64,000 bases of DNA, taken from the NCBI RefSeq assembly GCF_016862935.1, contig NZ_BONX01000002.1, positions 310,001 to 374,000 of the forward strand. The letters are read 5' to 3'. Positions 21,005 to 58,437 of the stretch are shown here, in pieces. A program made the position numbers and the translations under genes. Source of the stretch: Plantactinospora mayteni. Lineage in GTDB: Bacteria > Actinomycetota > Actinomycetes > Mycobacteriales > Micromonosporaceae. Below the pieces are notes generated by a model. The model was not told the DNA's origin. It ran no database searches and saw only the letters and a list, made by a program, of their open reading frames with translations. The number at the start of each line of letters is the position of its first letter. Within the stretch, counting starts at the first letter, position 1.

Positions 21005-21053
21005 CGGTGCAGCCCTTTCCCTCGATGGAACGCCCCCACACGGGGCCGGGCGG

Positions 21054-25347: not shown

Positions 25348-26298
25348 TCAGGCGTTCGAGGGCTCCGCCATCGCCACCGCGATCTGTCGAGGGCCGGTGA
25401 ACGGCTCGCGGCCGTGCGCCGCGAGCATGTTGTCGACCACCAGCACGTCGTCGTACTGCCAGTCGAAGCGTACGGTCGCGGCCCGGTAGCAGTCGCGCAG
25501 GTGGGAGATGACGTCGTCCGGGATCCGGGACCCGTCGCCGTAGTACGTGTTCGTCGGCAGGTCCTCCTCGTCGAACATCTCCAGGACCCCCTCCCGGACG
25601 TCCTTCGGCAGCGTCGTCACGTGGAAGAACGTCGCGTGGTTGAACCACACCGTCTCGCCGCTGACCGGGTGGGTGTGCACCGGCTTGCGGATCGCCCGGG
25701 TCCGCAACCCGCCGCCGTCCCGCCATTCGGTCTCGATCCCGTTGGCCGCGCAGTACTCGGTGACGGCCGCCTGGTCGTCGGTGTTGAAGATCTGCTGCCA
25801 GGTGGTGCCGAACGAGCCGTGGAAGTTGCGCACCACCATCCAGCCCCGCCGGACGAACTCCTCGCGGATGGTCGGGTCGATCGCCCGGTACACCTTCCGG
25901 ATGTCGGCCAGCGGGGTCGCACCCCGGGTGGCCGGCGCCTGCCGGCAGTAGAAGTAGAGGGTGAGCGGCCACACCGCCTGGTAGGAGTTCTCGTTGTGCA
26001 GGAAGATCTCCTCTTCCGGCGGGTAGTCGGTCGAGGTGTAGACCTGCCCCTTGATGGTGCTGCGCGGCGAGGAGCGCTCCGAGTAGGTCAGCGGCGGGCC
26101 GGAGAGCGCGCGTACCACCGCGTCGAAGCCGTCGACCCCGCCGACGGAGAAGCCGCGCAGCAGCAGCGCACCCCGCTCGTTGAGGATCTTCCGCAGGTCG
26201 GCGCGCTCGGCCCGGATCAGCTCCCCGATCTCGGCCCCGGCCGACTCGCGGGTGACCAGGTGCGGCATTGTTCCGATGTCAGTAGTGGAGTGAGTCAT
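25348..26298 (-). CDS. TauD/SyrP-like Fe(II)/2-oxoglutarate hydroxylase (HxE type), first of two
   Basis: The 316-residue oxygenase carries the iron triad His101-x-Glu103 (FLHNENSY) and His295 (NMLAAHGREPFTGPR), with Arg304 placed to bind 2-oxoglutarate. HxE instead of HxD is found in the clavaminate-synthase-like amino-acid beta-hydroxylases such as AsnO and VioC. The TEWRDGGGLRTRAIRKPVHTH and WFNHATFFHV segments match SyrP-like enzymes of NRPS clusters. It probably beta-hydroxylates a free or carrier-bound residue; Asn is a good candidate because two adenylation domains have Asn-like codes. AAGGG precedes the ATG, and the second hydroxylase gene ends 52 bp upstream. Confidence 0.88.
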   Translation of the reverse strand: MTHSTTDIGTMPHLVTRESAGAEIGELIRAERADLRKILNERGALLLRGFSVGGVDGFDAVVRALSGPPLTYSERSSPRSTIKGQVYTSTDYPPEEEIFLHNENSYQAVWPLTLYFYCRQAPATRGATPLADIRKVYRAIDPTIREEFVRRGWMVVRNFHGSFGTTWQQIFNTDDQAAVTEYCAANGIETEWRDGGGLRTRAIRKPVHTHPVSGETVWFNHATFFHVTTLPKDVREGVLEMFDEEDLPTNTYYGDGSRIPDDVISHLRDCYRAATVRFDWQYDDVLVVDNMLAAHGREPFTGPRQIAVAMAEPSNA

Positions 26299-26350
26299 GG
26301 GTCCGGCCCTTCGGTCTGGACAACTCCGCGCGGTGTGGGGCGGAAAGGGT

Positions 26351-27292
26351 TCAGTCGGACATGGCCACCAGGACCCGACGCCGTCCGGTGAACGGACGCC
26401 GGCCGTGGCCGACCAGTACGTTGTCGATCAGCAGCACGTCGCCCTGCCGCCAGTCGACGTCGACGGCGTTCTCCAGACCACGGTCGCGCACCTGGATGAC
26501 GTACTCGTCCGGGATCGGGGTGCCGTCGGCGAAGGTGACCAACTGCGGCAGCTCGTCCGGCGGCAGCACCTCGGCCAGCGACTTCGCGGTGTCGTCACCC
26601 AGCGCCGCCGGGTGCCACTGGTCCGACTGGTTGAACCACACCTCGACCCCGGTGACCGGGTGCCGGGTGGTGGAGGGGCGGTCCTGGGTGACCCGCAGCC
26701 CACCGTCGGACTTCCACTCCCAGCTCGCCTCGGTGCTGCTCAGGAACGCCTCGACCTCGTCCCGGTCGGCGGTCTCGAACGTGTCCTGCCAGCTCTTGCC
26801 GAGGCCGAAGCCGTCGTGCAGGTTCTGGGTGTAGCGGACCCCGCCGGCGTACGCGGCGCGCACCTCCGGGTCCAGCGACTCCAGCCACCGGACGGCGTCG
26901 ACCACCGGAGTGGCGCCACCGGTCTCCGCCGCCGTGTGGCAGAAGAACATCAGCCGGGACGGCCACTGGTGGGCGTACGACAGCTCGTTGTGCATCGAGA
27001 TGGTGAACTCGGGCGGGTACTCGGTGGAGGTGTAGACGTTCTTCCCCACCTTGGTACGCGGCGAGTTGCCGTGCACGTACGCCAGCCGGTTCGGCAGCAG
27101 CCGGTCCATGACCGGGTCGAGCGTCTCCTCGGTCACCTGGAAGCCCCGGAAGACCAGCGCCTTCTCCGCGGTCAGCAGCTTCTCCAGGTCCGGCGTCGTC
27201 GAGAGGTAGTCGACCAGCCCCTGCGGGCTCCCCTCGACTCCGGCGCCCGCCGGGTCGATTTCCATCGGTCTCCAGGTCTGGTGACCTTCCAT
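26351..27292 (-). CDS. TauD/SyrP-like Fe(II)/2-oxoglutarate hydroxylase (HxE type), second of two
   Basis: The 313-residue protein is a paralogue of its downstream neighbour. It has His101-x-Glu103 (SMHNELSYAHQWPS), His296 (NVLVGHGRRPFTGRRR) and the shared motifs VYTSTEYPPE, GGATPVVDA and VWFNQSDQWHP. MHNELSY is close to the SyrP signature. It may hydroxylate a different residue, or the same residue at a different module, from the first enzyme. The start is supported by AAGGGAGAG five bases before the ATG. The 110-bp gap upstream of it, after the MFS gene, is relatively AT-rich and could hold a promoter. Confidence 0.88.
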   Translation of the reverse strand: MEGHQTWRPMEIDPAGAGVEGSPQGLVDYLSTTPDLEKLLTAEKALVFRGFQVTEETLDPVMDRLLPNRLAYVHGNSPRTKVGKNVYTSTEYPPEFTISMHNELSYAHQWPSRLMFFCHTAAETGGATPVVDAVRWLESLDPEVRAAYAGGVRYTQNLHDGFGLGKSWQDTFETADRDEVEAFLSSTEASWEWKSDGGLRVTQDRPSTTRHPVTGVEVWFNQSDQWHPAALGDDTAKSLAEVLPPDELPQLVTFADGTPIPDEYVIQVRDRGLENAVDVDWRQGDVLLIDNVLVGHGRRPFTGRRRVLVAMSD

Positions 27293-27402: not shown

Positions 27403-28950
27403 CTATACTTTCTCGATACTGCGGCCATCAGGCCGCTCGGCACCCGTCCCGGCACCGCCGCCAGCACCGCCAGCGGCGCCGCCGTTCGCGGCCCGGCCAC
27501 CGGCCATCCGGGTGATGTCGTTTCGGCCAGGAGCGGCGTGCCGGCCCAGCCGGCGGACGAGCCGGGCGTTGTCCGGACTCCTGGCGATGCTCCGCACCGA
27601 CGGGCTGAGCAGGGCGAGCAGCACCAGCGAGGCCATCACCGCGCTGAGCAGCAGCACGGTCGCCCGGACTCCGGCACCGCCCAGCAGCACCCCGCCGGCC
27701 AGCGCGCCGAGGAAGTTCGATCCCGAGGCGAGCAGCGTGGCGACGGCGCCGATCCGGCCCATCATCGGGTCCGGAGTGATCCGTACCATGTAGACCCCGC
27801 CGACCACGTTGAACAGTCCGCCGACGTAGCTGTTGGCGGCGAAGATCACCGCCAGGCTGACCGGATCGGTGGTGAACGCCATCAGCGGCACCGTCAGCGC
27901 CCAGGCGGCGAGCCCGCCCACCACCAGGGCCCGCAGCGTGGCCCGGCGCATCCACCACATGCCGCTCAGCGCGCCGAGCATCCCGCCCACCCCGCTGGCC
28001 CCGATCACCGCGCCGACCACCGCGGCCGAACCGCCGCCGTTGCGGATGGTGACCATCAGGGCCAGGGTCAGCGCCTGGAAGACCGCGTTGCTGATCGCGA
28101 CGTAACCCAGCACGGTACGCAGGAACCGCTGCTGCCACAGCCAGGCCACGCCCTCGGCGATGTCGGCGCGCAGCGTACTCGGCTTGGCCGCCCGGGGCTG
28201 CTGGAAGGGCTTGCGGATGAACAGCAACGCGAGCAGCGAGCCGAGGTGGGCGACGGTGGTGAACAGGAACGGCGCCCACCGGGCCACGGTGAACATGACG
28301 CCGCCCAGCGGCTGGCCGATCAGCACCGCGGCCCGGCCACGGGTCTCGTTCTGGGTCAGCGCCGCCGGCAACTGTTCGGCCGGGACCAGGTGCCGGACGG
28401 CGGCCCGCTCGCCGAGTTGGTAGAAGACGCTCAGGCTGGTCTGCACGAACGCCACGACCATGAGCTGGGGTACCCAGACATGGCCGAGCAGCACCGCCAC
28501 CGCCACACTGCCGGTGGCGACGAGGCAGCCCACGTCGCAGATGATCATCATCCGGCGCCGGTCCCAGCGGTCGACGAACGCGCCCGCCGGCAACTGCACC
28601 AGCAGGTGCGGCAGCAGCGCGGCAGCGCCGACCAGGCCCGCGTTGCCGGCCGACCCGGTGTACCAGAGCACCAGCATCGGGTACGCGATCGAGGTGATCC
28701 GAGCCCCGATCAGGGTGCCGGCCGCTCCGACCCAGAGCAGCAGGAAGTCCCGGTTTCGGTGCAGTGGGGTGGTCGGCGCGGGCGGACCGCCCGGGTCGGA
28801 CGGCACCGCCGCACCGGACGGTGTCGACGACGGACCAGGCGGTGTCGACGACGGCCCTGGCGATGTCGACGGACCGGGCGATGTCGACGACCCACCGCGC
28901 GGCGCCGCCCCGCCGGATGACGGCGGGGCGGGCTCCTCCACGATGCTCAC
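27403..28950 (-). CDS. MFS exporter (MFS_3 / enterobactin-exporter-like)
   Basis: The 515-residue membrane protein has about 12 helices (for example FLLLWVGAAGTLIGARITSIAY, ALLPHLLVQLPAGAFVDRWDRRRMMI with the conserved D-R-W-DRR loop, and GVAWLWQQRFLRTVLGYVAI). It starts at GTG 28950, overlapping the TGA of the fused NRPS gene as GTGA. A Ser-Thr-Pro-Gly N-terminal tail of about 55 residues is built from 7-residue repeats, and the C-terminus is Gly-Ala-rich. It most likely exports the product or confers self-resistance. It is the last gene of the NRPS unit. Confidence 0.9.
   Translation of the reverse strand: MSIVEEPAPPSSGGAAPRGGSSTSPGPSTSPGPSSTPPGPSSTPSGAAVPSDPGGPPAPTTPLHRNRDFLLLWVGAAGTLIGARITSIAYPMLVLWYTGSAGNAGLVGAAALLPHLLVQLPAGAFVDRWDRRRMMIICDVGCLVATGSVAVAVLLGHVWVPQLMVVAFVQTSLSVFYQLGERAAVRHLVPAEQLPAALTQNETRGRAAVLIGQPLGGVMFTVARWAPFLFTTVAHLGSLLALLFIRKPFQQPRAAKPSTLRADIAEGVAWLWQQRFLRTVLGYVAISNAVFQALTLALMVTIRNGGGSAAVVGAVIGASGVGGMLGALSGMWWMRRATLRALVVGGLAAWALTVPLMAFTTDPVSLAVIFAANSYVGGLFNVVGGVYMVRITPDPMMGRIGAVATLLASGSNFLGALAGGVLLGGAGVRATVLLLSAVMASLVLLALLSPSVRSIARSPDNARLVRRLGRHAAPGRNDITRMAGGRAANGGAAGGAGGGAGTGAERPDGRSIEKV
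28820..28900. repeat. 21-bp tandem repeats encoding the MFS N-terminal tail
   Basis: Units at 28820-28840, 28841-28861, 28862-28879 (18 bp) and 28880-28900 share GRTGTCGACGACGG. Read on the minus strand, they encode a repeating Ser-Thr-Pro-Pro-Gly-Pro-Ser tail. Unit length is a multiple of three, so copy-number changes keep the frame. Confidence 0.75.
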
Positions 28951-31900
28951 GATGCGGTCCCCGGCGGCCCGGCGACCGGACCGCGACGGCACCACTCCAG
29001 TACCGCCATCGCGCTGTGCAGCTTGTTCTCCGCCTGCTCGAAGGCGATGCTCGCCGGGCCGTCCAGCACCTCGGCGGTGACCTCCTCGCCCCGGTGCGCC
29101 GGCAGGTCGTGCATGAAGACCGCGTCCGGGCTGCCGGTCCACAGTGCACTGTTGACCTGGAACGGTGCGAAGATCTCCCGCCAGTTCGCGTCCGGCTTGC
29201 TGGTGCCGGTCGTCTGCCACCGGGTGGTGTAGATGACGTCGAAGCCGCCGGGCAGCTCGGACATGTCGTGCCGTTCGCAGATCGTCGCCGTACCCCGGGC
29301 CGCCTGCGCGGCGGCGGTCGCGGTGATCTCCTCGGTCAGCCCGTAGCCGGGTGGCGTACGCAGCTCCAGGTGGGTACCGGCGTAGCGGGTCAGGGCCAGG
29401 GCGAGCGCGGCGGCGCTGTTGTTGCCCTCGCCGACGTAGAGCACCCGCAGCCCGTCGATCCGGCCGAAGTGGTCGAGCAGGGTGGTCAGGTCGGTCAGCG
29501 CCTGTGTCGGGTGCTCGTCGGCGGTCATCGCGTTGACCACCGACATCCGGTCCTGGTCCGCCATCTGGCGCAGCTCCGCCGGATCACCCGAGGTCCGGGC
29601 AACCAGCACGTCGAGCATCCGGGACATCACCCTGCCGGTGTCGGCGTGCGTCTCGCCGGTGTTGAGCTGGAGGTCGTCCGGCCCGTACGCGACGATCTGC
29701 GCGCCCAGCCGCAGCGCACCGCTGGAGAACGCGGTCCGGGTCCGGGTCGAGGTCTTCTTGAAGTAGACGCCGACCACCTCGCCGTCGAGCGGCCGTTCCC
29801 GCCGGAGCTGCCCGGACCGGAACCGTACCGCCCGGGCGACGATGGACCGCAGGTCCTCGTCGGTCAGGTCGTTGATCGAGATCAGATGCCGCACCGCCCG
29901 CGTCTCCTCCTCCTTCGCCGTGCCACCGACCGGCGGCGCGTCCCGGGCCCAGTCGGCCGCGAATCCGGCGCGGCCGGCCGGCTCCCCGAGCCGGATGGTC
30001 TCGCCGTCGTCGGCGGTGGCGTACCCCGCCGGCTCCGCCCCGCCGCCGGACCGCTCGGCCCAGCCGGCCAGCTCGGTGGCGACGAACGCCTGCACCGCCT
30101 TGCCGGACTCCGAGTTGGTCAGCACCACGAAGCCGTCACCGGACCGGAGCCGGCCCAGGGTCATCGCGCGGTAGCCGGTCGTCTCGCCCGGATGCCCGAA
30201 CTCCAGATCCGGCGCGGTGTCGTCGACGACCGTGCCGAGACCGTAGAAGCTGCCCGGCGAGGCGACCGCCACCAGTTCGGCGGCGAGTTCCGGGGTGAGC
30301 AGTTCGCCGCCGCCCAGGTGCGCGCGGTGGATCTCTGCCAGCACCCGGGCCAGGTCCGCGGCGGTCGTCCAGAGACCCCCGGCCGCCAGCGCCGGCCGGT
30401 TTCGCCAGCCACCGGGTACGGGTACCCCGTGCTCGTCGTGGCCGAGCGCGACCGGGCGGGCCGGGTCGGCCGGGAACGCCGGGTCGAAGCTGCTGCCGGT
30501 CATGCCCAGCGGTACGAAGACGAGCCGGCGGATCAGCTCCGGGAACGCTTCCCCGGTCAGGTCGACCAGCACCTGTTGCAGTACCGCGTAGTGGCTGTTG
30601 GTCTTCCGGAACGACTCCCCCGGCACCAGCTCGGGCCGGACCGGCGCGGAGCTCGCGGGCGGGCGGCCGTACAGCACGTCGAGTAGGGACGGGGCCGGCT
30701 CGGTCGGGGCGTACCCGGTGTTCGGGCTGGTGGAGAGGCCGGAGAGGTTGGCCAGCAGGTGTCGTACGGTGACCGGGGCCGGGCCGTCCGGCAGCCGCCA
30801 CGAGGTCAGGTACCGGTTCACGTCGGCGTCCAGCTCCAGCCGCCCCTGCCGGACCAGCCGGAGTACCCCGAGCGCGGTGACGTGCTTGCTGATCGAGGCG
30901 ACCTGGAACGGGGTCTCCGGGGTGACCGGCTCGGCTCCGCCGGCGACCAGTACGCCGTAGCCGCGTACCGCGACGACCTGGCCGGCCCGGACCAGCGCGA
31001 CGCTCGCCCCGGGCACGCGGTGTTCGGCCATGGTGGGCAGCGGCGACGGCCCGGCGGCGAGCCGACCGGCCGGACCCGCCTCGACCCGGCTGACCGGGAC
31101 CGGGGTACCGGCGACCGTCACCGGCTCGGCCGCGACGACGGCGACCGGGGCTGGCGCGCCCGACCCGGCGACGGCGACGGGCCCCGGTTCCGCGACGACG
31201 ACGGCGGGGACGGCGATGGCAGGCTCCGGTTCCGCGACGACGACTGCGGCGGCGGCAGGTTCCGGAGCCACGGCGCCGGCCTTGGCCGGCCGGATGACCG
31301 GGAGGAGCTGGGTCGGTTCGACGAGGACACTGGCCGGGGGCGGCGCGCCGAGCGCGATGGCCAGTTCGGCGACGGTGCCGTGCTGGTAGAGCATCCGCAG
31401 CGACACCTCCAGCCCGGCCTTGCGGGCGGCGGTGACGAGCTGCACGATCCGCATCGAGTCGGCGCCCAGGTCGAAGAACTTGTCGTGCACACCCACCCGG
31501 TCGATGCCGAGCACCTCCACGCAGATCTTGGCGATCCGCCGCTCGGTCTCGTTGCGCGGCGCCACGAAGTCGCGCTCACCGCCGAACGAGGTCCGCTCCG
31601 GCGCCGGCAGCGCCCGCCGGTCCACCTTGCCGGCCGAGTTCAGCGGCAGCGCGTCCAGGGTGACGAACGCGGCCGGCACCATGTAGCCGGGCAGCGCCGC
31701 GGCCAGGAAGTCCCGCAGCTCGGCCGGCTCGACCGGCCGACCGTCCACCGGTACGACGTAGCCGGCGAGCCACTTCTCGCCGCCCACGTCCTCCCGGGCC
31801 ACCACCACACCGTTGCGGACCTGCGGATGGGCGAGCAGCCGCTCCTCGATCTCCGGCAGCTCGATCCGGTGCCCCCGGATCTTCACCTGGTGGTCCGCCC

Positions 31901-33092
31901 GACCCAGGAACTCCAGGTTGCCGTCCGGCAGGTACCGGACCAGGTCACCGGTGCGGTACATCCTGGTCCCGGCGGCCTTGCCGAACGGCTCCGGCAGGAA
32001 CTTCTCGGCGGTCAGCTCGGGACGGTTGACGTACCCGCGGGCGACGCCGTCACCGGCGATGTAGAGCTCGCCGACCACGCCGACCGCGACCGGCTGGAAG
32101 TCCCGGTCCAGCACGTAGGTCCGGGTGTTCGCGATCGGTCGGCCGATCGGCACCACCTCGACGTCGCCGGGCACGTCCCAACTGGTGGACCAGATGGCGG
32201 TCTCGGTCGGGCCGTACACGTTGACCAGTCGCTTCACCCGGCCGCTCAGGTCACCCGCCAACGCCGGGGGCAGCGCCTCGCCGCCGACCAGCGCGACCAC
32301 CGGCCGCTCGCCGAAACCCGCGTCCAGCAGCAGCTTCCAGCCCGACGGGGTCGCCTGGACGTGCGTCACCGGAAAGCGGTCGAGCAGGCTGAGCAGTTCC
32401 GGGCTGTCCCCCACCTCGTCGTCGTCGGCCAGCACCAGCCGGCCGCCGGTGACCAGCGGGAGATACAGCTCCAGGCCGGAGATGTCGAAGGAGAGCGAGG
32501 TCGCGGCGAGCCAGACGTCCTCGGTGCCGGCGTCCAGCAGCCGGCGCATCGAGAAGAGCAGGTTCAGCAGCGCCCGGTGCGAGATCTGCACGCCCTTCGG
32601 CCGGCCGGTCGAGCCGGAGGTGAAGATGATGTACGCGAGCTGGTGCTGGTCGTCGCGGCCGGGCACCGGCTCCGCCGGCCGGGACTCGATGACCTTCTCG
32701 TCCCGGTCGGCGAGGACGTGCCGGCCGGAGTAGACGCCCTCCAGCCGGCCGATCACGTTCGACTCGCTGACCACCAGTTCCGCCCCGGCGGTCTCCAGCA
32801 TGTAGCCAAGCCGTTCCGGCGGCAGGTCCGGATCCAGCGGTACGTAGGCCGCGCCGGCCTTCCAGACCGCCAGCAGCCAGGCCACCAGGGACGGTTCCCG
32901 CCCCAGCAGCACCCCGACCACCGTCTCCGGTCCGACCCCGACCGCCCGCAGGTGCTGGGCGTATCGGTTCGCCAGCGCGTCGAGTTCGGCGTACCGGACC
33001 CGCTCGCCGCCCTGGACCACCGCCACCGCCTTCGGGGTGGCCGCGGCCTGTGCCTCGACAACGTGGTGCACTGATCGACTCATGCTGCTCAC
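28947..33092 (-). CDS. terminal NRPS: A-PCP fused to a beta-lactamase/PBP-like domain and an ornithine-carbamoyltransferase-like domain
   Basis: This 1381-residue protein has four parts. The A domain (about 1-490) has IIFTSGSTGRPKG; its hand-read code DILQLGVIWK is close to Gly. The PCP (about 515-585) carries LGADSM with Ser near 546. After a 100-residue Ala-Val-Pro-Glu linker, a class C beta-lactamase/PBP-like domain (about 695-1030) has the nucleophile motif SISK near 734 and HPG, but the YxN motif reads KTN. An OTC-like domain (about 1065-1370) has STRTR and HPTQALTDL for carbamoyl phosphate, whereas the ornithine motif HCLP is HDLP and the SMG loop reads TTG. The GTG start overlaps the preceding stop (GTGA). 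Upstream condensation comes from the last domain of the 3682-residue NRPS. The PBP-like part may release or cyclise the peptide; the OTC part may carbamoylate Dap. Confidence 0.92.
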   Translation of the reverse strand: MSSMSRSVHHVVEAQAAATPKAVAVVQGGERVRYAELDALANRYAQHLRAVGVGPETVVGVLLGREPSLVAWLLAVWKAGAAYVPLDPDLPPERLGYMLETAGAELVVSESNVIGRLEGVYSGRHVLADRDEKVIESRPAEPVPGRDDQHQLAYIIFTSGSTGRPKGVQISHRALLNLLFSMRRLLDAGTEDVWLAATSLSFDISGLELYLPLVTGGRLVLADDDEVGDSPELLSLLDRFPVTHVQATPSGWKLLLDAGFGERPVVALVGGEALPPALAGDLSGRVKRLVNVYGPTETAIWSTSWDVPGDVEVVPIGRPIANTRTYVLDRDFQPVAVGVVGELYIAGDGVARGYVNRPELTAEKFLPEPFGKAAGTRMYRTGDLVRYLPDGNLEFLGRADHQVKIRGHRIELPEIEERLLAHPQVRNGVVVAREDVGGEKWLAGYVVPVDGRPVEPAELRDFLAAALPGYMVPAAFVTLDALPLNSAGKVDRRALPAPERTSFGGERDFVAPRNETERRIAKICVEVLGIDRVGVHDKFFDLGADSMRIVQLVTAARKAGLEVSLRMLYQHGTVAELAIALGAPPPASVLVEPTQLLPVIRPAKAGAVAPEPAAAAVVVAEPEPAIAVPAVVVAEPGPVAVAGSGAPAPVAVVAAEPVTVAGTPVPVSRVEAGPAGRLAAGPSPLPTMAEHRVPGASVALVRAGQVVAVRGYGVLVAGGAEPVTPETPFQVASISKHVTALGVLRLVRQGRLELDADVNRYLTSWRLPDGPAPVTVRHLLANLSGLSTSPNTGYAPTEPAPSLLDVLYGRPPASSAPVRPELVPGESFRKTNSHYAVLQQVLVDLTGEAFPELIRRLVFVPLGMTGSSFDPAFPADPARPVALGHDEHGVPVPGGWRNRPALAAGGLWTTAADLARVLAEIHRAHLGGGELLTPELAAELVAVASPGSFYGLGTVVDDTAPDLEFGHPGETTGYRAMTLGRLRSGDGFVVLTNSESGKAVQAFVATELAGWAERSGGGAEPAGYATADDGETIRLGEPAGRAGFAADWARDAPPVGGTAKEEETRAVRHLISINDLTDEDLRSIVARAVRFRSGQLRRERPLDGEVVGVYFKKTSTRTRTAFSSGALRLGAQIVAYGPDDLQLNTGETHADTGRVMSRMLDVLVARTSGDPAELRQMADQDRMSVVNAMTADEHPTQALTDLTTLLDHFGRIDGLRVLYVGEGNNSAAALALALTRYAGTHLELRTPPGYGLTEEITATAAAQAARGTATICERHDMSELPGGFDVIYTTRWQTTGTSKPDANWREIFAPFQVNSALWTGSPDAVFMHDLPAHRGEEVTAEVLDGPASIAFEQAENKLHSAMAVLEWCRRGPVAGPPGTAS

Positions 33093-36000
33093 CAATCCAC
33101 GGCTGTGTCGTTCCAGTCGGTCAGAACCGCGTCCCGTTCCCCCGCCGGCATGTACGTCCCCCGGGCGTCACCGTCGGCACCGGAAGCCATCGACTCCAGC
33201 ACCGCCCGGTACATCGCCACCACCCGCTCGGCGTTCTCCGAGGTCAGCGCGGAGCGCCGGACCCGCAGCATCAGGTGCCCGGGGCCGGTCGAGACCGCGA
33301 GCGCGAACTCGTTGGCGGCGTCACCCGCACCGGCCCGCACGTCGACGAGATCCGTGTCGACCTGGTGGAAGTCCTGGTAGCTGAACATCACCTCGATGAG
33401 CTGCCGCCCACCGACCTGACGCTGGATCGCCGGCATCGGATAGCGCCGGTGCGGCCAGAGTTCGACCTCGCGGTCGAAGACCTGCCGGACCAGTTCGCCC
33501 CAGGTGCCGGCCGTCCGGTCGTGCGCGAACGGCAGGGTGTTGAGGTACATCCCGTACACCTTGTCGGCGCCGTCGACCTCGGGCCGGGCGCTGCACACCA
33601 GGCCGGTGAAGAACGCCGGCTCGTCGGTGAGCTGGCTCATCACCTTCAGGTGCGCCGCGTGCAGCACCGCCTTCAACGAGGTACGGGTCGACGTCGCCAG
33701 CGCCCGCAGCCCCGGCTCCAGGTCCGGGAACCCGACCGGGATCCGGAAGCTGCCGGCCTCGTCGGCGGCGCCTCCCCAGCCGGCCGGCAGGGTGAACCGG
33801 GTGTGCCGGGTGACGGTCCCCTGCCAGTAGTCGCGGTCCGCCGCCGATCCCAGCGAGTCGAGTTCGGCGGCGATGAAGTCCGCGTACCGGACCTTGGGTG
33901 CGGTGACCGGCTCGGGGGTGTTGCCGGCGGCGAGCTGCCGGTAGAGGTCGAGCACCTCCATCAGCAGCGACTGCTGGCTCCAGCCCTCGGTGATCGCGTG
34001 GCACTGGGTGAAGCCGAGCCGCCAGGCGTCGTCGCCCTCCACGAAGCCGGCCATCCGGAGCAGCGGCGGGCTGGCCAGGTCGAACAGGCTCGCCCGCTCC
34101 CTGGCGATCAGGTCGCGCAGGGCCCCCTCCTTGGCCGTCTCGTCCAGGTGCCGTACGTCGGACACCTCGACCGGCATCTCGGCCGTGCCGTGCACGATCT
34201 GCATCGGCACCGAGTACGTGGTCAGGTCGAACGAGGTCCGCAGCAGTTCGTGCCGCTCGACCACGATCCGGGCCGCCTCGCGCAGCGCCGCCGGTTGGAA
34301 GGGCTGCTCGTCGCGGATCCGGTAGAAGCTGGTGTTGTGGTAGCGGTTGCCACCCACCCCGCCGAGCATCTCCACCACCATGCCGAGCTGGACCTGCGAC
34401 AGCGGGTACGCGTCGACCACCCCGGCCGGCAGCGCGGCCCGGTCCTCGTCGGAGAGCAGGGCGAACGGCGTCACCGTACCGGCCTCGGCCGGCTGGTCGG
34501 CGACCGTCTGGCCGGAGAGCGTCTCGGCGAGTTCGCCGACGGTGCGGTACTGGAACACGTCCCGGACCGCCACCTCGAACCCGGCCGCCCGCAACTTCCC
34601 GACCAACGCCACCGCCCGGATCGAATGCCCACCCAGATCGAAGAAACTCTCCGTCACCCCAACCCGGTCAAGCCCAAGCACCTCCCGCCACACCGCCGCA
34701 ATCCGCTCCTCCACCGGCGTACGCGGACCCACAAAAACAGGCCCCGCATCCACCGCAGCGGTATCCGGATCCGGCAGCGCCCGACGATCCACCTTCCCGT
34801 TCGCGTTCAACGGCAGCGCATCCAGCGACACGAACGCCGCCGGCACCATGTACTCCGGCAACCGGGTCGAGACATGCGCGGTCAACCCCGCCACGTCCAG
34901 CACACCGTCGACCGGCACGCAGTAGGCGACCAGGCGCTTGTCCGACGCCGCACCCACCGCGACCACCACCACATCGCGAACCGCATCATGCTCCAGCAAC
35001 ACCGACCGGATCTCACCCAACTCGATCCGATACCCGTGCACCTTCACCTGGTCATCGACCCGACCGACGAACTCGACGTCACCGCTGGGCAGCATCCGCA
35101 CCTGGTCACCGGTCCGGTAGAGCCGAGCACCCGCCGAACCGAACGGGTCCGGCACGAACCGCTCCGCCGTCAACTCCGGCCGGTTCACATAACCCCGAGC
35201 CACCCCGACCCCACCGACATACAACTCACCCAACACACCCACCGGGACCGGCGACAGGTCGGCGTCCAGGACGTACATCGACATGCCCGGCAGCGGGCGG
35301 CCGATCGGCAGCACGTCGGCGGTCTGCGCGCCCTGCACCGGGTAGATGCAGGTGCCGACGGACGCCTCGGTGGGGCCGTACTCGTTGACCAGGCGGCCGT
35401 CGCCGAGGATCCGGCGCCAGTTCTCGGCGACCGGGCCGGGCAGGGCCTCGCCGGCCACCACCACGACCTCGGCCAGCGCGGCGAGCTGGGCGTCCTCGGC
35501 CTGCTGGCCGATGATCTCCAGGTGCCCCGGGGTCAGCTTCAGGAAGCTGAACGGACCGGCCGCCACCAACTCCCGACCCAGATCCGCCATGTCCAGATCC
35601 GGACCCGCCAACCACACCCGCTGACCCGACACCAACGGCGCCCACACATTCGGCACCACCAGATCGAACGCCACCGACGAGAACAACGCCGAACCACCCA
35701 CACCACGACCAGCCAACTCCCGCGCCGCCCACGACACATGGTTGACCAACCCACGATGCGACACCGCCACACCCTTGGGCCGACCCGTCGACCCCGACGT
35801 GAAGATCACGTACGCCAACCGGTCGAGGTCGGCGGGTTCGGCGATCGGGGTCGACGGACGGTTGCCGATCTCCAGGCGCTCGGTGTCGACCAGGACGCAG
35901 TCCAGCGCCGGGTCGAACCGGTCCGCGTGCCGGGACCGGGTGACCACCACCCGGGCACCGGCGTCGGCGAGCATCGTGTTCACCCGGTCGGCCGGGAACG

Positions 36001-39000
36001 AGGGGTCCAGCGGCACGTACGCGCCACCGGTCTTCCAGACCGCCAGGAAGGTGGCGATCAGGTCCGGGCTCCGGTCCAGCAGCACCCCGACGAGGGACTC
36101 CGGGCCCACTCCCCGGGACCGCAGGTGCCGGGCCAGCCGGTTCGCCCGGGCGTCCAGCTCCGCGTAGTCGAGTTCCAGCTCGCCGAGCGCCACCGCGGTC
36201 CGGTCCGGGTGCGCGGCGGCCACGTCGGCGACCAGCTCCGGCACGGTACGCGTCGGCGCCGCGGTGGGGTTGACGGCGTACTCGCCGAGCAGCCGCTCCC
36301 GCTCGTCCGCCGGCAGGTGGTTGTCCCGGGCGTCGCCGTCGGCTCCGGTCGCCGCCATCGCCGCCAGCACCGCCCGGTACATCGCGCCCAGTCGGGTCGC
36401 GTCCGGCCGGCTCAGCATGTGCGTGTCGGCGGTCAGCACCAGGCTGCCGGTCATCGCGGCGACGGCCAGGCCGAACTCGGTGGCTCCCTCGCCGAGGCCG
36501 GACTCCACGTCGACCAGTTCGGTGTCGACCGCGTCGAAGTCCTGGTAGCTGAACCGCACGTCGAGCAGGCGCTGGCCGTCGGCCAGGTCCCGCTGGATCG
36601 CCGGCATCGGGTAGCGCCGGTGCGGCCAGAGTTCGACCTCGCGGTCGAAGACCTGCCGGACCAGCTCACCCCAGGTCGCCGCGCCCCGCCGGTGGGCGAA
36701 GGGCAGGGTGTTGAGGTACATCCCGTAGACCCGGTCTGCGCCGTCGACCTCGGGCCGGGCGCTGCACACCAGGCCGGTGAAGAAGTCCGACTCGTCGGTG
36801 AGCTGGCTCATCACCTTCAGGTGCGCCGCGTGCAGCACCGCCTTCAGGGAGGTACGGGTCGACGTCGCCAGCGCCCGCAGCTCGGGCTCCAGGTCGCGGA
36901 CCGGCACGGTGACCGAGTACGGCTCCCGGGGCGTCGACGGGTCGGCGGCCCAGCCGGTCGGCAGCGACAGCTTGGTGTAGCCGTCGACGATCCCGCGCCA
37001 GTAGTCGCGGTCCTCCGTCGACTCCAGCGAGTCGAGTTCGGCGGCGATGAAGTCCGCGTACCGGACCGCCGGGCGGGTCGCCGGAGTCGGGGTGCCGCCG
37101 GCCCGGAGCTGCTGGTACAGCTCCAGCAGCTCGGTCAGCATCGCGCGGTGGCTCCAGCCCTCGGTGATCGGGTGGGAGACCGTGACGGACATCCACCACG
37201 CCTCGTCGCTCTCCTCGTGCACGGTGAACCGCAGCAGCGGGGCCACCCCGAGGTCGAACAGCTCGGCCCGTTCCGCACCGGTGAACTCCCGGATCGCCTG
37301 CTTCCGCCCGGCCTCGTCGAGCTGCCGGATGTCGCGTACGCCGATCGGGATCTCGGCGGTGCCGTGCACGAGCTGCATCGGCACCGCGTACGTGGTCAGG
37401 TCGAACGAGGTACGCAGCAGTTCGTGCCGCTCGACCACGATCCGGGCCGCCTCGCGCAGCGCGTCCAGCCCGAACGGCTGCTCGGTACGCAGCCGGAACG
37501 AGGTGACGTTGTGGTAGGCGTGCAGGTCGGTGTCGGCCAGCATCTCGACGACCATGCCGAGCTGGACCTGCGACAGCGGGTACGCGTCGACCACCCCGGC
37601 CGGCACCTTGGCCCGGTCCTCGTCGGAGACCAGCGCGAACGGCGCGACGGTCGGCCCGTCGACGGTGGTTGCCCCGACGGTCGCCTCCGGCTCCGGGCCG
37701 GCCAGCCGCTCGGCGAGTTCGGCGACGGTGCGGTACTGGAACACGTCCCGAACCGCCACCTCGAACCCGGCCGCCCGCAACTTCCCGACCAACGCCACCG
37801 CCCGGATCGAATGCCCACCCAGATCGAAGAAACTCTCCGTCACCCCAACCCGGTCAAGCCCGAGCACCTCCCGCCACACCGCCGCAATCCGCTCCTCCAC
37901 CTCGGTACGCGGCCCCACAAAAACAGGCCCGGCGTCCACGGCGGCGGTATCCGGATCCGGCAGCGCCCGACGATCCACCTTCCCGTTCGCGTTCAACGGC
38001 AGCGCATCCAGCGACACGAACGCCGCCGGCACCATGTACTCCGGCAACCGGACACCACAGTGCTCAACCAACACACCGACCGGAAGCTCACCGTCAGCCG
38101 GCACACAGTAGGCGACCAGGCGCTTGTCCGACGCCGCACCCACCGCGACCACCACCACATCGCGAACCGCATCGTGCTCCAGCAACACCGACCGGATCTC
38201 ACCCAACTCGATCCGATACCCGTGCACCTTCACCTGGTCATCCACCCGACCGACGAACTCCACATCGCCACCGGGCAGCACCCGCACCTGGTCGCCGCTG
38301 CGGTAGAGCCGAGCACCCGGAACCGAGCCGAACGGGTCCGGCACGAACCGCTCCGCCGTCAACTCCGGCCGGTTCACATACCCCCGAGCAACCCCGACCC
38401 CACCGACGTACAACTCACCCAACACACCCACCGGGACCGGCGACAGGTCGGCGTCCAGGACGTACATCGACATCCCGGGCAGCGGGCGGCCGATCGGCAG
38501 CACGTCGGCGGTCTGCGCGCCCTGCACCGGGTAGATGCAGGTGCCGACGGACGCCTCGGTCGGGCCGTACTCGTTGACCAGTTCCGCGTCGGGGGCGCAC
38601 TCCCGCCAGCGCTCCAGGGTGTGCCGGGTAAACGCCTCGCCGGCCACCACCGTGATCTCGGCGAGCCCGCTCGCCTCGCCCGGCGCGAGCTGGTGGGCGA
38701 GCACCTCCAGGTGGCCGGGGGTCAGCTTCAGGAAGCTGAACGGACCGGCGGCCAGCAGCTCAGGACCGAGGTCCGCCATGTCCAGATCCGGACCCGCCAA
38801 CCACACCCGCTGACCCGACACCAACGGCGCCCACACATTCGGCACCACCAGATCGAACGCCACCGACGAGAACAACGCCGAACCACCCACACCACGACCA
38901 GCCAACTCCCGCGCCGCCCACGACACATGGTTGACCAACCCACGATGCGACACCGCCACACCCTTGGGCCGACCCGTCGACCCCGACGTGAAGATCACGT

Positions 39001-42000
39001 ACGCCAACCGGTCCAACTCGACCGGGACGGTGAGCGGCGTCGCGGGCTGTTCCGCGATGGTCGCCGCGTCCCGGTCGACCAGGACCCGGACCGGGACGTC
39101 CGGGAACCGGTCGGCGTAGCCGGAGCCGGTCACCACCACCCGGGCACCGGCGTCGGCCAGCATGTCGGCGATCCGGTCGGCCGGGTGGGCCGGGTCCAGC
39201 GGCACGTACGCGCCACCGGCCTTCCAGACCGCCAGGAAGGTGGCGATCAGATCCGGACCCCGGTCCAGCAACACCCCGACGACCGACTCCGGCACCACCC
39301 CGCAGGCGCGCAGGTGCCGGGAGAGCCGGTTCGCCCGGGCGTCCAGCTCGGCGTACGTGAGATGCTGGCCGGTGGACTCGACCGCCGCCGCGTGCGGGTT
39401 GGCCATCATCTGCGCGACGAACCGCTCCAGCACGGCCGGGCCGGTCGGCTCGGCGGTGGTGCGGTTCCACTCGACCACCAGCCGCTGCCGCTCCTCGTCG
39501 GCGAGGAAGGTGCCCCGGGCGTCGCCGTGCGGGTCCGCCGCCATCGCCTCCAGCACGGCCCGGTACATCGCGCCCATCCGGTCACCGTTGGCCCGGCTCA
39601 GCACCCGGGGGTTGACCGCCATGGTCACGTAGCCGAGCCGGACCGCCACGGCGAGCGGGAACTCGGTCGGGCTGTCGTCGATGCTGGCCATGTAGTCGAC
39701 CAGTTCCTTGTCGACCTGGTCGAAGTCGTGGTAGCTGAACCGGACGTCCATCAGCCGCTGGCCGTCGCCGAACTCGCGCTGGATCTCCGGCATCGGGAAC
39801 CGGCGGCGCGGCCAGATCTCCATCTCCCGGGCGTACGTCCGCTGGACCAGTTCCAGCCAGGTCCGGGCGCCCCGGTCGTAGCCGAACGGCAGGCTGTTCA
39901 GGTACATCCCGTAGACCTGGTCGGCGCCGACCACCTCGGGGCGGCCGTGCAGCACCAGGCCGGTCAGGAACGACTCCTCGGCGGTGAGCTGGCTCATCAC
40001 CTTCAGGTGCGCGGCGAGCAGCACCGTCTTCAGCGACGCCTTCGCCCGGCTGGCCAGCTTCCGCAGGTCGGACTCCAGGTCGTGGAACGGCACCCCGAGC
40101 ATCAGCGACTCGCGCGGCGCGTCCTCGTCACCCCAGCCGGTCGGCAGGGAGAACCGGGCGTACCGGCCGACGATGTCCCGCCAGTAGTCCCGGTCCTCCG
40201 CCGAGTCCAGCGAGCGCAGCTCGGCGCCGATGAAGTCGGCGAACCGCAGCGGCGGTGCCTCGACCGTGGCCGGGGTGCCGCCGTCCCGGATCTCCCGGTA
40301 GAGGTCGAGCACCTCCATCAGCAGCGAGTGGTGGCTCCAGCCCTCGATGATCGCGTGGCACTCGGTGACCGACAGCCACCAGGTCTTGTCGTCGCAGACG
40401 TGCGCGTAGAGCCGCATCAGGGCCGGCTGGGCCAGGTCGAAGACGTCGGCCCGCTCCACCGCGGTGAACTCCCGCAGCGACCGGTCCAGCTCGGCGGCGT
40501 CCAGGTGCCGCAGGTCCCGCTCCCCGACCGGCATCTCGGCGGTCGGGTACACCACCTGCATCGGCACCGAGTACGTGGTCAGGTCGATCGCGGTACGCAG
40601 CACCTCGTGCCGGGCCACCACGATCCGGGCCGCCTCGCGGAGCGCGTCCAGCGCGAACGGCCGCTCGTCCCGGATCCGGAACGACGTCACGTTGTGGTAC
40701 GCGTGCAGCTCCCCGTCGGAGAGCATCTCCACGACCATGCCGGCCTGGACCCGGGACAGCGGGTACGCGTCGCTCGCCCCGGCCGGCACCTTCGCCCGGT
40801 CCTCGGCGGAGATCAGCTCGAACGGCGCCACCGGGCGCTCCTGCTCAGCCGGTGCCGACCGGCCGTCGAGGATGCCGCACAGCTCGGCGACGGTACGGTG
40901 CGCGAAGACGTCCCGGACCGACACGTCCAGCCCGATCGCCCGCAGCTCGCCGACCAGGGCCACCGCCCGGATCGAGTGTCCACCGAGGTCGAAGAAGCTG
41001 TCGTGCACGCCGACCCGCTCCACCCCGAGCACGTCCCGCCAGATCGCCGCGACCCGCTCCTCGTCCGGGGTACGCGGGGCCACGTAGACCTGCTCCCCGG
41101 AGAGCGCGGCGCGGTCCGGTGCGGGCAGCGCGCGACGGTCGAGCTTGCCGTTGGCGGTCAGCGGGATCTTCTCCAGCGGCACGAACGCGGCCGGCACCAT
41201 GTATTCCGGCAGGCTGCGGCCGAGGAACTCGCGCAGCTCGGCCGGGCTCGGCACCTGGTCGCCCTCGGCCACCAGGTAGCCGGCCAGCCGCTTGTCGCCG
41301 GGGATGTCCTCCCGGACCACCACCACGGCGTCCCGGACACCTGGGTACGCGGCGAGCACCGACTCGATCTCGCCCAGCTCGACCCGGTAGCCCCGGATCT
41401 GCACCTGGTCGTCGATCCGACCCAGGAAGTCCAACCCACCGTCGGGCCGACGCCTCGCCAGGTCACCACTGCGGTACATCCGAGCACCCGGCTCGACCGC
41501 GAACGGGTCCGGCACGAACCGCTGCGCGGTCAGCTCCGGCCGCTTGAGATAGCCCCGGGCCACGCCGGGACCACCCACGTGGATCTCCCCCGGCACCCCG
41601 ACCGGGACCAGGTTGCCGTACTGGTCGAGGAGGTAGATCCGCAGGTCGCCGAGGGGGTAGCCGACCGGGTTGCCGGGGTCGGTGATGTCCTCCGGGCGTA
41701 CCTGGTGGAAGCTGGAGTGCACCGTCGTCTCGGTGATGCCGTACATGTTGAGCAGGGCCGGGCGGTCCAGGCCGAACCGGTCGGTCCAGGGGGCCAGCTC
41801 GGCCATCTCCAGCTTCTCGCCGGCGAAGACCACCGCCCGCAACTCCAGGGCGGCGAGCCGGGGGTCCTCGTCCCGGGCGAACCCGACCAGGCTGCGGAAC
41901 GCCGTCGGAGTCTGGTTGAGCACGGTGACCCGCTCCCGGACCAGCAGCTCCAGGAACTCGTCCGGTACCCGGGTCACCTCGCGCGGCACCACCACCAGCC

Positions 42001-44137: not shown

Positions 44138-47100
44138 CCCTTTTGCTCCTTCAGCAACGCCAGGCCGGCCAGCAGGTCGGAATCGGAAAGCTCGTCGATC
44201 TCCGCGCGGATCCGCTCCTCGACCGCCTCGGCGATCCGCGCGATCGTGGGCCGCTCGAAGACGGTCCGGACCGGAAGGTCGATCTCGAACTCCTCCTGGA
44301 TCCGGGAGGCCAGCCGGACCGCGAGGATCGAATGGCCGCCGACGGTGAAGAAGTTCGTCCGGGTACCGGCGTCGACGTCGAGCAGCTCGGCCCAGATCTC
44401 GGCGATCCGCTCCTCGACCGGGCCCTGCGGCGCGACGTACTCCGCGGCGTCCACCTCGGCGACCGTCCGGCCCGGTGCGGGCAGGGCGCGACGGTCGAGC
44501 TTGCCGTTGGCGGTCAGCGGGATCTTCTCCAGCGGCACGAAGACGCCCGGCACCATGTAGTCGGGCAACCGGCCGCCGCAGTGCCCGACCAGCTCGGCGA
44601 CGCTCGGCGGGTTGTCGGCGTCGGACACGTAGTAGGCGACGATCCGCGGCTGGCCCGGCTCCGGCTCGTCGGTCAGCACCACCGCGTCCCGGATTCCCGG
44701 GTACTCGGCCAGCACCGACTCGATCTCGCCCAGCTCGACCCGGTAGCCCCGGATCTGCACCTGGTCGTCGATCCGGCCCAGGAAGTCCAACCCACCGTCG
44801 GGCCGACGCCTCGCCAGGTCACCACTGCGGTACATCCGAGCACCCGGCTCGACCGCGAACGGGTCCGGCACGAACCGCTGCGCGGTCAGCTCCGGCCGGT
44901 TCAGGTAGCCCCGGGCCACGCCGGGACCGCCGACGTGGATCTCGCCGGGTACCCCGATCGGCGCCAGGTTGCCGTAGCCGTCCAGGAGGTAGATCCGCAG
45001 ATCGCTGAGCGGATAGCCGACCGGGTTGCCGGGTGCGGTGATGTCCTGCGACCGCACCAGGTGATAGCTGGAGTGCACCGTCGTCTCGGTGATGCCGTAC
45101 ATGTTCACCAGGGCGGGGCGGTCACCGAACCGGGCCACCCAGGGCGCCAGCTCGGCCATCTCCAGTTTCTCGCCGCCGAAGACCACCGTACGCAGCGCCA
45201 ACCGGTCCAGCCGGGAGTCGCCGTCCCGGGCGAACCCGACCAGGGCGCGGAACGCCGACGGGGTCTGGTTGAGCACCGTCACCCGCTCCCGGACCAGCAG
45301 TTCCAGGAACTCGTCCGGCAGCCGGGTCACCTCGCGCGGCACCACCACCAGCCGACCGCCGTAGACCAGCGCGCCCCAGAACTCCCAGACCGAGAAGTCG
45401 AAGGCGTACGAGTGGAACAGCGTCCACACGTCGTCGGTGGTGAAGCCGAACCGCGGATGGGTGGTGCCGAACAGCCGCAGCACGTTGGCGTGGGTCAGGC
45501 AGACCCCCTTCGGCCGGCCCGTCGACCCCGACGTGTAGATCACGTAGATCAGGTCCTCGGGGTGCGACACCGACGCCGGGTTCTCCGCCGACTGCCCCGA
45601 CAGGTCCTCCTGGTCCAGCACCAGCAGCTCACCGTCGAAGAACCCGGAGACCGTCCCGACCAGCGACGCCTGCGTGACGATCACCGGCGTACCCGCGTCG
45701 CCGACCATGAAGCCCAGCCGGTCCACCGGCTGCGCCGGATCCAGCGGCAGGTACGCCGCCCCGGACTTCAGCACGCCCACCAGGGCCGGGACGAGGTCGA
45801 TGCCCCGCTCCAGGCAGACCCCGACCAGCGAGCCGGAGCCGATCCCGGAGGCGCGCAGCCGGTGCGCCAGCCGGTTCGCCCGGACGTTCACCTCGGCATA
45901 CGTCAGCGAGACGCCCTCGAAGGTCACCGCCACCGCGTCCGGGGCGAGCAGTACCCGCTCCTCGAAGACCTGGTGCAGGCAGCGGTCCGGGGTACCGGTG
46001 CGGAACGGATCGGCCCGGCCGGTGCCGATCAGCTCGTCGACCGGGTCGAGGAAGTCGACCGTGCCGAGCCGCAGCTCCGGATCGGCGGTGACCGCCTGGA
46101 GCAGCCGGACCAGATGCCCGCCCATCCGGTCCACGGTGGAGCGGTCGAAGAGCGCGGTCGCGTACTCCAGGGCGCCGAGCATCGTGCCGTCTTCCTGGAC
46201 CCGGACGAAGAGCGTCAGGTCGGTCTTGGCGATCTGCCACGCCTCGGTGAACGCGGCCAGGTCGTCCGCCTGTACCGCACCGCCGGTCAGTCCCTCGTCG
46301 TGCAGGTCGAAGGCGACCTGGAACAGCGGGGTCCGGGACAGGTCCCGGTCCGGCTGGAGGTCGTCGACGAGCTGCTCGAACGGCAGCGTCTGGTGGGCGA
46401 ACGCGCCCCGGCAGACCTCCCGGGTCGCCTCCAGCGCCTCGCCGAAGCGCATTCCGGCGCTCAGGTTCGGCCGCAGCACCAGGGAGTTGAGGAAGAACCC
46501 GACCATGTCCTCCAGCTCGGGCCGGTTACGGCCGGCCACCGGAGTGCCGACGGCGACGTCCCAGCGGCCGGCGTACCGGGCGAGCAGGGTGCTGAACGCG
46601 GTCAGCATCGTCATGTACGGCGAGGCGCCGTACCGCCGGCCCAGGTCGCGGATCGCGCCGGCCAGCGCGGTCGGGATGGTGAACGGGGCGAGCGCACCCT
46701 TGGGGTCGCGGCGGGCCGGTCGGGGCCGGTCGGTCGGCAGGTCCAGCGGCCCGAGCCCGTCGAGGGTCTTCCGCCAGTACGCCAGCTCGGCCGCCAGCAC
46801 CTCCTGGGTCAGCCAGCCCTGCTGCCAACTCGCGAAGTCCGGGTACTGGACCGGCTGCGCCGGCAGTTCCGGGGTACGTCCGGCCGCCACCGCCGCGCAG
46901 AGTTCCCGCAGCTCCCGCTCCAGCACCACCGACGACCAGCCGTCGCAGGCGATGTGGTGCAGGGTGAGCAGCAGTACCGACTCGCCCGCCGGGGCCCGGC
47001 CGGCGGTGGCCGGAATCCGCACCGAGGTCGGCGGGGTGGGCGTCGGCACGCCCGGGAAGCGGACCAGCAGCGCCCGCCAGACCGGGCCGGTGGCCAGGTT

Positions 47101-49539: not shown

Positions 49540-49613
49540 GGGCCGGATCACCTGGGACGCAGTGCCGCCCGGAGCGGGCCGGATCACCTGGGATTCGCGG
49601 TGCCGCCCGAAAC
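49540..49613. repeat. 36-bp tandem duplication at the end of the sbnB-like gene
   Basis: GGGCCGGATCACCTGGGA-containing units at 49540-49575 and 49576-49613 are near-identical, including GTGCCGCCCG. The second contains the stop codon (49584-49586) and last codons of the sbnB-like gene, so the first is a duplicated copy of the gene end lying in the gap before mbtH. Confidence 0.75.
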
Positions 49614-56811: not shown

Positions 56812-56945
56812 CAGCAGCCGCCTAAGAAACCGCTGGCTTGAGCCATGGGGAGGACAGGGCGGTCAGGCGTGGTGTTAGTTCTCGGCATGGCGGCGGCTCC
56901 TCTGTGGGGCAAAACCTGTCGGATGCGGCTGGGATGCTTCCGGGT

Positions 56946-58405: not shown

Positions 58406-58437
58406 GGTGCACTCCTTCGACGTACGGACGGGGTTGG

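Follow-up and report, generated by a model that had tools for sequence, protein, structure and literature searches.

What might a carbamoyltransferase do when it is fused behind the last carrier domain of a peptide synthetase? The question is raised by a gene in a 64,000-nucleotide stretch of Plantactinospora mayteni DNA (contig NZ_BONX01000002.1, positions 310,001 to 374,000; the whole stretch is termed the window), in which the final adenylation and peptidyl carrier domains of a nonribosomal peptide synthetase (NRPS) share one frame with a serine hydrolase of the penicillin-binding protein (PBP) type and a carbamoyltransferase. The first-pass annotation of this DNA proposed that the two C-terminal enzymes jointly form a station on the last carrier, at which the chain is released or cyclized and a ureido group is made. 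The comparisons described here favor another arrangement with a probability of roughly 0.63: the gene would encode a terminal subunit whose S12 hydrolase releases the chain and whose C-terminal transcarbamylase supplies module 1, the two enzymes serving opposite ends of one assembly line.

Layout and origin of the fused gene

The features of the gene are as follows; dN/dS is the ratio of nonsynonymous to synonymous substitution rates.

28947..33083, minus strand: whole fused gene; likeliest start ATG 33083, 1378 amino acids (the frame itself opens at GTG 33092)
31626..33056, minus strand: adenylation domain (Pfam); code DILQLGVIW, presumably Gly-like
31356..31538, minus strand: peptidyl carrier domain (Pfam); phosphopantetheine Ser546
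31035..31355, minus strand: Ala/Pro/Val-rich linker; 26.9-67.6% identity across five species, dN/dS 0.70
30102..31034, minus strand: S12/PBP-fold hydrolase domain, probable chain release (Pfam, structure model, catalytic residues)
29892..30101, minus strand: second linker; 29.1-78.0% identity, dN/dS 0.89, frame kept in five genomes with differing lengths
29904..29912, minus strand: internal Shine-Dalgarno match GAGGAGGAG within the fused frame
28947..29894, minus strand: possible internal gene; a start at GTG 29892-29894 would yield free carbamoyltransferase of 315 amino acids
28989..29891, minus strand: carbamoyltransferase domain (Pfam); diaminopropionate-transcarbamylase signature TRWQTTG and HDLP

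A single uninterrupted frame occupies positions 28947-33092 of the minus strand, and its 1381-residue translation (P0001) provides the residue numbering used throughout. The likeliest start, ATG 33083, lies 5 bases past the stop of the upstream synthetase gene behind a Shine-Dalgarno match of -9.8 kcal/mol, and a match is present at that place in all five genomes found to carry the fusion. Third-position GC along the frame is 0.87-0.99. A Pfam search confirmed the predicted order of parts, with every expected family above its curated cut-off: AMP-binding (residues 13-354), AMP-binding_C (414-489), PP-binding (519-579), Beta-lactamase (PF00144; 687-997), OTCace_N (1068-1205) and OTCace (1213-1368). 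The description of the N-terminal part as a terminal NRPS module also held insofar as an adenylation domain and a carrier with its phosphopantetheine serine are present with no module after them; the condensation domain that serves them instead terminates the protein encoded upstream (33089-44137).

The same domain order was sought in related genomes, with up to three candidates scored per genome in the family (354 genomes) and up to two in a sample of the class (394 genomes). The hydrolase-carbamoyltransferase query was matched in 91 genomes of the family, and by a single match over essentially its whole length in five, all belonging to the window's own genus. The four other fused genes are 80-91% identical to that of the window, and two of the five lie in single-contig assemblies. 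Of the seven genus members, five have a match to the cluster's diaminopropionate synthase and all of these also have the fused part; the other two showed neither at the thresholds used. In the class sample 16 genomes matched, and no match besides the window's own spanned both domains without a stop; among the 15 other matching genomes five loci were inspected, all of them unfused, and the remainder were judged by match extents. The long matches in G497/L146 and G487/L143 did not reflect fusions; the two genes of L143 are in phase with each other, but a stop separates their open frames. A candidate second fusion in G023 was discarded as a transcarbamylase with no hydrolase in its frame.

A further set of named loci comprised the best 80 of 320 relatives, fetched by carbamoyltransferase; hits below 150 bits were excluded from the hydrolase and carbamoyltransferase sets, and these loci may share species with the genomes searched. 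The expectation that pathway carbamoyltransferases are usually separate proteins was borne out: none of these best 80 of 320 carries both enzymes in one open frame, and 28 of the 33 clusters in which a carbamoyltransferase lies no more than 800 bases downstream of the hydrolase are unfused. The hydrolase was in view at 19 of the named loci, and in 18 the carbamoyltransferase domain starts 3-148 bases after the synthetase stop, as measured from domain edges and not annotated starts. Thus, as far as these sequences indicate, the carbamoyltransferase of relatives is a separate gene, usually directly downstream.

The five fused sequences form one clade (SH-aLRT 98 in a quick tree of 101 sequences). 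Averaged over the ten pairs of fused genes, dN/dS was 0.249 for the adenylation domain, 0.506 for the carrier, 0.237 for the hydrolase and 0.229 for the carbamoyltransferase, with values of 0.695 and 0.894 for the linkers, a pattern which indicates purifying selection on both C-terminal domains and drift in the linkers. An assembly error joining separate genes was rejected, because the frame recurs in five of seven genus genomes and purifying selection is seen in both C-terminal domains. By these comparisons the fusion arose once, in the window's genus, through the joining of a PBP-terminated synthetase gene with the transcarbamylase gene just downstream.

The hydrolase domain

Assignment of the hydrolase to the PBP/beta-lactamase superfamily was upheld by the PF00144 hit and by an AlphaFold2 model (pLDDT 87.8) with the S12/PBP fold. 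The catalytic residues Ser733, Lys736 and His967 are present, Asn832 is a candidate for the asparagine of the PBP-type thioesterase tetrad, and Lys830 occupies the usual S12 Tyr position. The fold, the SxxK serine and lysine and the HxG histidine are those expected of a PBP-type thioesterase. Membership among the class C beta-lactamases failed, as the YxN tyrosine is absent and the NCBIfam bla_class_C model scored 45 bits against a cut-off of 415. The SxxK and HxG motifs are kept in 15 of 15 sequences in one alignment (A1) and 20 of 20 in a wider one (A5), both including the window. The asparagine is kept in all 15 of the former and in nine of the latter, and the tyrosine, whose position was placed through the R61 DD-peptidase, is replaced in 34 of 34 aligned sequences. 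As to whether the two C-terminal domains might be inactive remnants, the expected catalytic residues are kept in both, with the S12 tyrosine as the missing element.

The closest structural matches of the model were a Pyrococcus PBP homologue (Z 37.3), esterase IS11 (37.2), a DL-peptidase (35.9) and LACTB (35.4). SurE (6ksu) ranked fifth (Z 34.8, 330 residues, root-mean-square deviation 3.1, 25% identity), with EstCE1, EstB and a D-amino-acid amidase within 1 Z of it and ClbP at 32.9; the comparison does not support SurE as the single nearest fold. No lipocalin-like domain follows the hydrolase, which is separated from the carbamoyltransferase by ~70 drifting residues; in 19 relatives the distance from the hydrolase end to the stop is 9-61 amino acids.

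The position of the domain is informative. Both in the window and in 25 other frames where an adenylation domain is visible, the hydrolase is joined to the last carrier, and so it does not stand alone; three hydrolase frames without an adenylation domain were left out of the code table. The first-pass annotation described PBP-type thioesterases as normally separate proteins acting in trans; the BifB domain (PMC13285481) shows that cis forms exist. The corresponding slot was inspected at 13 loci hand-picked among those without a PBP hit (ten with a release domain, plus L059, L061 and L063): a PF00975 thioesterase follows the last carrier in nine, a reductase in one and nothing in three, the synthetases of L059, L061 and L063 ending 6-12 residues after the carrier. 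In eight of the ten the carbamoyltransferase starts within 180 bases of the synthetase stop (seven of the eight are of the thioesterase type). No other release domain was found by Pfam on the window's synthetases. As nine of 13 related clusters carry PF00975 there, the PBP domain occupies the release slot and swaps with classical thioesterases, and on positional grounds it is likely the chain-release domain. The module that precedes it is separated from it by a gap of 13-104 amino acids in 24 of 26 frames, leaving no room for an epimerization domain; the gap is 329 and 390 amino acids in the other two.

The transcarbamylase and the destination of its product

The carbamoyltransferase domain was modeled with a pLDDT of 93.2 and superposes on ornithine carbamoyltransferases (4nf2: Z 40.6, 301 residues, 1.6 Å). 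Its earlier description as ornithine-carbamoyltransferase-like is apt for the OTCace_N and OTCace folds and for the ureido-forming kind of enzyme, but the motifs are of the diaminopropionate type and the score against the ornithine carbamoyltransferase model TIGR00658 (258.8 bits) is below its cut-off of 280.85. A review of the family takes the (T/S)RWQTTG 240's loop with HDLP to mark L-2,3-diaminopropionate transcarbamylase and TRWQSMG the diaminobutyrate enzyme, treating the distinction between the two as unsettled, and assigns carbamoyl-phosphate binding to STRT, R, H, Q and a Gln of the neighboring subunit (PMC4581275). In the window TRWQTTG begins at T1290, HDLP with D1329 stands in place of HCLP, and S1115, R1117, H1194 and Q1197 are kept, as is Q1142, the residue of the neighboring subunit.

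Among 100 sequences including the window, the loop reads (T/S)RWQTTG in 92, (T/S)RWETTG in seven and RWNTTG in one; HDLP and STRTR are present in all 100, counts that are biased because the patterns used to retrieve 80 of the sequences included both. The ornithine-type motifs DxxxSMG and HCLP are absent from the window and from all 100 sequences. A diaminobutyrate transcarbamylase was rejected, TRWQSMG occurring in none of the 100. From its motifs and from the SbnA and SbnB genes of the cluster, the domain is predicted to be an L-2,3-diaminopropionate transcarbamylase.

The assembly line and the genes relevant to its substrates are arranged as follows.

33089..44137, minus strand: NRPS2, C-A-PCP-C-A-PCP-C-A-PCP-C (C, condensation; A, adenylation; PCP, peptidyl carrier); its final C acts for the fused module; codes Thr-like, Asn-like, Asn-like
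44134..49260, minus strand: NRPS1, A-PCP-C-A-PCP; first code DAWQFATID, Gln-like and read as ureidoalanine, second Thr-like
49584..50597, minus strand: SbnB, 2,3-diaminopropionate biosynthesis (TIGR03944, 399.9 bits, cut-off 326.9)
50597..51697, minus strand: SbnA, 2,3-diaminopropionate biosynthesis (TIGR03945, 428.3 bits, cut-off 349.95)
55315..56811, minus strand: stand-alone condensation protein, probable N-acylation
58438..63862, minus strand: fatty-acid starter genes, encoding two acyl-CoA-dehydrogenase-like proteins and a fatty acyl-AMP ligase

The codes of the adenylation domains were taken from a motif alignment to the window's adenylation domain, domains <150 bits or of no more than 350 residues being excluded from the code table. 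Their meanings, including that of DAWQ(F)ATID as near the glutamine code and that of DILQLGVIW as Gly-like, are presumed ones. In shape, ureidoalanine corresponds to glutamine in which a nitrogen takes the place of one carbon atom. The DAWQ-ATID code is at the first module in all eight PBP clusters with both ends in view (the window, G334, G335, G337, G008, G090, G143 and L062), with SbnA or SbnB alongside in seven. These eight are not independent, since four belong to the window's genus. The count omits G220, G321 and the other PBP loci, whose sequence ends short of the first module. The last adenylation domain before the hydrolase is Gly-like in seven of 26 frames and Asn-like in 19. Because the first module has a Gln-like code and the last carrier a Gly code, ureidoalanine, which resembles glutamine, is most likely destined for module 1 and not for the last carrier.

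The proposed pathway can be outlined on this basis. The lipopeptide synthetase would have six modules, with the fused gene encoding its terminal subunit. The adenylation domain of that subunit would load glycine onto the adjoining carrier, the condensation domain ending the preceding protein would join the chain, and the S12 domain would accept it on Ser733 with the aid of Lys736 and His967 and pass it to water or to a Thr or hydroxy-Asn hydroxyl. From carbamoyl phosphate and the diaminopropionate made by SbnA and SbnB, the C-terminal domain would form beta-ureidoalanine, to be loaded by the Gln-like first adenylation domain where the same line begins. On this reading the line is predicted to make an N-acylated ureidoAla-Thr-Thr-(OH)Asn-(OH)Asn-Gly peptide. 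Of the release/cyclization role in the first-pass annotation, release is consistent with the slot that the hydrolase occupies, whereas head-to-tail cyclization is doubtful, as the peptide probably has an acylated N-terminus, judging by the fatty-acid starter genes. Transcarbamylases work as trimers. A trimer is expected here too, since Gln1142, which would reach into the active site of the neighboring subunit, is kept; fused subunits would therefore have to associate with each other or with free copies from an internal start.

The internal start bears on which product of the gene matters. In the window GAGGAGGAG is followed by GTG 29892-29894 just ahead of the carbamoyltransferase domain. Four of the five fused genomes have a GTG or ATG 1-2 codons before RHLIS with a Shine-Dalgarno match of -11.3 to -11.4 kcal/mol, about where unfused relatives begin (1-6 codons ahead of the same place, n=11), and among 73 unfused genes, 57 show a match at least as strong as -6 at a start codon no more than 15 codons away. 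Because a ribosome-binding site and start lie inside the frame in four of five fused genes, a free copy of the carbamoyltransferase may be made, and full-length and free products are both possible. It could be argued further that the free protein is the relevant enzyme and the fused form a read-through by-product of a lost stop. This is unlikely: G334 lacks a start codon there and has only a GTG located 12 codons before the domain (-10.2), and of 437 in-frame starts across the five frames 17 have matches at or below -10, 12 of which lie elsewhere (five of them at one conserved in-domain place). This background, the close relationship of the genomes and the G334 exception weaken the signal. Moreover, all five linkers (61, 60, 60, 56 and 71 codons) keep the frame, a weak argument as 6-26% of neutral simulations were stop-free anyway.

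A joint station, with the fused carbamoyltransferase acting on the chain or residue on the last carrier just before the hydrolase cyclizes and releases it, would suit the physical fusion behind that carrier and would echo proposals for viomycin that carbamoylation follows loading or assembly (PMC10880069, PMC9403184). It would require a side-chain amine that the Gly or Asn read by the last module does not offer. The Gln-like module 1 in eight of eight PBP clusters also speaks against it, as does gene order: the carbamoyltransferase gene follows NRPS1 and not a release domain in G143, L062, L083 and L118, and in other clusters comes after either a classical thioesterase or a carrier lacking any release domain. 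With ureidoalanine placed at module 1 the joint station becomes quite improbable, and the likelier account is that a tethered enzyme, which may be trimeric, supplies the first building block. The remaining competitor concerns the hydrolase alone, which could be an editing, proofreading or prodrug-type peptidase. Its structural likeness to ClbP and D-peptidases, the Asn-like last module of relatives and a separate thioesterase gene nearby (20249-21352) could be taken in that sense; yet the domain fills the slot held by PF00975 in nine of 13 related clusters and the synthetases have no other release domain by Pfam, so that a peptidase role seems very improbable.

Several observations nevertheless weigh against terminal release coupled to a supply of module 1. 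The fold places SurE fifth, with several esterases, LACTB and a D-amino-acid amidase scoring about equally in the modeled comparison, and the hydrolase could be slow or use another mechanism since the tyrosine is absent throughout and the asparagine is kept in only nine of the 20 wider sequences. Characterized PBP-type thioesterases need a C-terminal D-residue, although WolJ accepts Gly (PMC11735501); the Gly end predicted for the window would suit this preference, whereas relatives ending in L-Asn would depart from it. The link from code to ureidoalanine is not general, because a Gln-like code was found in only six of 12 non-PBP loci with a transcarbamylase, a diaminopropionate gene and a coded adenylation domain (present in L083, L086, L092, L098, L099 and L118; absent in L067, L068, L074, L077, L107 and L120), and all such codes derive from motif alignment and presumed code meanings. 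Finally, if the order proposed for VioL, with carbamoylation after loading or assembly (PMC10880069, PMC9403184), were to apply here, a free diaminopropionate substrate would be the wrong premise.

A bolder extension of the favored arrangement is improbable as a whole. The gene would yield two products, the full chain and a free transcarbamylase, whose mixed trimers would tether one or more terminal modules to a common hub of ureidoalanine synthesis, and the lipocalin-less, tyrosine-less cis PBP-type thioesterase would close a lactone or hydrolyze N-acylated peptides. If it were true, the building block for module 1 would be concentrated at the assembly line. In any case the gene is a natural fusion of a predicted trimer-forming enzyme to a synthetase module, and the oligomeric effect is directly testable. 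The combination of SbnA/SbnB, an HDLP/TRWQTTG transcarbamylase and a Gln-like first module is suggested as a marker for ureidoalanine-first peptides.

Neighboring genes and known systems

Other genes of the cluster flank those described above.

25348..27292, minus strand: two TauD-family dioxygenases, probable Asn beta-hydroxylation
27403..28851, minus strand: MFS exporter, directly downstream of the fused gene

A second fatty acyl-AMP-ligase-like protein (23029-24825, minus strand) is present besides that at 62021-63862, and also in four sister clusters. In NRPS2, three condensation domains (residues ~1248, 2309 and 3367) have H-A/P-I-x-E-G-W-S replacing HHxxxDG, and the first condensation domain reads HHVACDAWS. 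The adenylation domains at 34775-36226 and 37961-39415 (minus strand) are identical over long stretches and in their Asn-like code, DLPKVAEVG, as would be expected from a module duplication. The 533-residue frame at 56811-58412 (minus strand) may not be a gene, as it has no Pfam or NCBIfam match, low third-position GC and only fragment matches, in G335 and G337. Outside the cluster core, 3210-5396 (plus strand) encodes a fused chorismate-binding and glutamine-amidotransferase protein.

The same transcarbamylase type was seen in four Bacteroidota loci (L102, L103, L130 and L133), adjoined by synthetase or thioesterase domains. In the Amycolatopsis loci L074, L077, L089 and L107 the gene order is SbnA, transcarbamylase, SbnB, and three of the four show an adenylation domain coded DFTK(I/V)AHMS, probably for another ureidoalanine peptide. 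L119 and L121 were dropped as viomycin loci, their diaminopropionate-synthase matches lying on other contigs and one adenylation code being Thr-like. No Bacillus record, as might represent the zwittermicin transcarbamylase on Bacillus plasmids, was among the matches at E limits of 1e-50 and 1e-40.

The first-pass annotation knew of no described example of this domain order. In a literature search of Creative Commons (CC)-licensed PMC papers, likewise, none of the titles and abstract openings listed describes this fusion, whereas a PBP-type release domain in cis has already been described. In the biffamycin A pathway (2026) a SurE (PBP-TE) domain is embedded in BifB, and its deletion abolished the product (PMC13285481). 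Compared by description, BifB resembles the fused gene in having a PBP-type release domain within a terminal synthetase module; it differs in making a tetrapeptide, and the word carbamoyl is absent from the main text of that paper (PMC13285481). A 2024 review presents PBP-type thioesterases as stand-alone enzymes with a Ser/His/Asn/Lys tetrad (PMC11735501). SurE itself (6ksu) shares the PBP fold, the SxxK serine and lysine and the HxG histidine with the window's hydrolase, which in contrast is fused in cis, lacks the lipocalin domain and probably acts on a peptide with a blocked N-terminus. Here, cis PBP-type release domains recur across actinomycete genera and swap with classical thioesterases.

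By published motif, the diaminopropionate transcarbamylases (DPTCase) of viomycin and zwittermicin share the TRWQTTG loop, HDLP, the carbamoyl-phosphate residues and adjacent diaminopropionate genes with the fused enzyme, but are not described as fused in the text of that source (PMC4581275). The rotihibin rth cluster resembles that of the window in its fatty acyl-AMP ligase (FAAL), two acyl-CoA dehydrogenases, a ureido residue (Cit) in first position and hydroxy-Asn near the end; it differs in using reductase release and diaminobutyrate, and the terms carbamoyl and beta-lactamase are absent from the main text (PMC8552735). Set beside these systems, the gene is a lineage-specific fusion of two neighboring genes in which each part is of a known kind, the one a PBP-type release domain in cis and the other a transcarbamylase of the diaminopropionate type.

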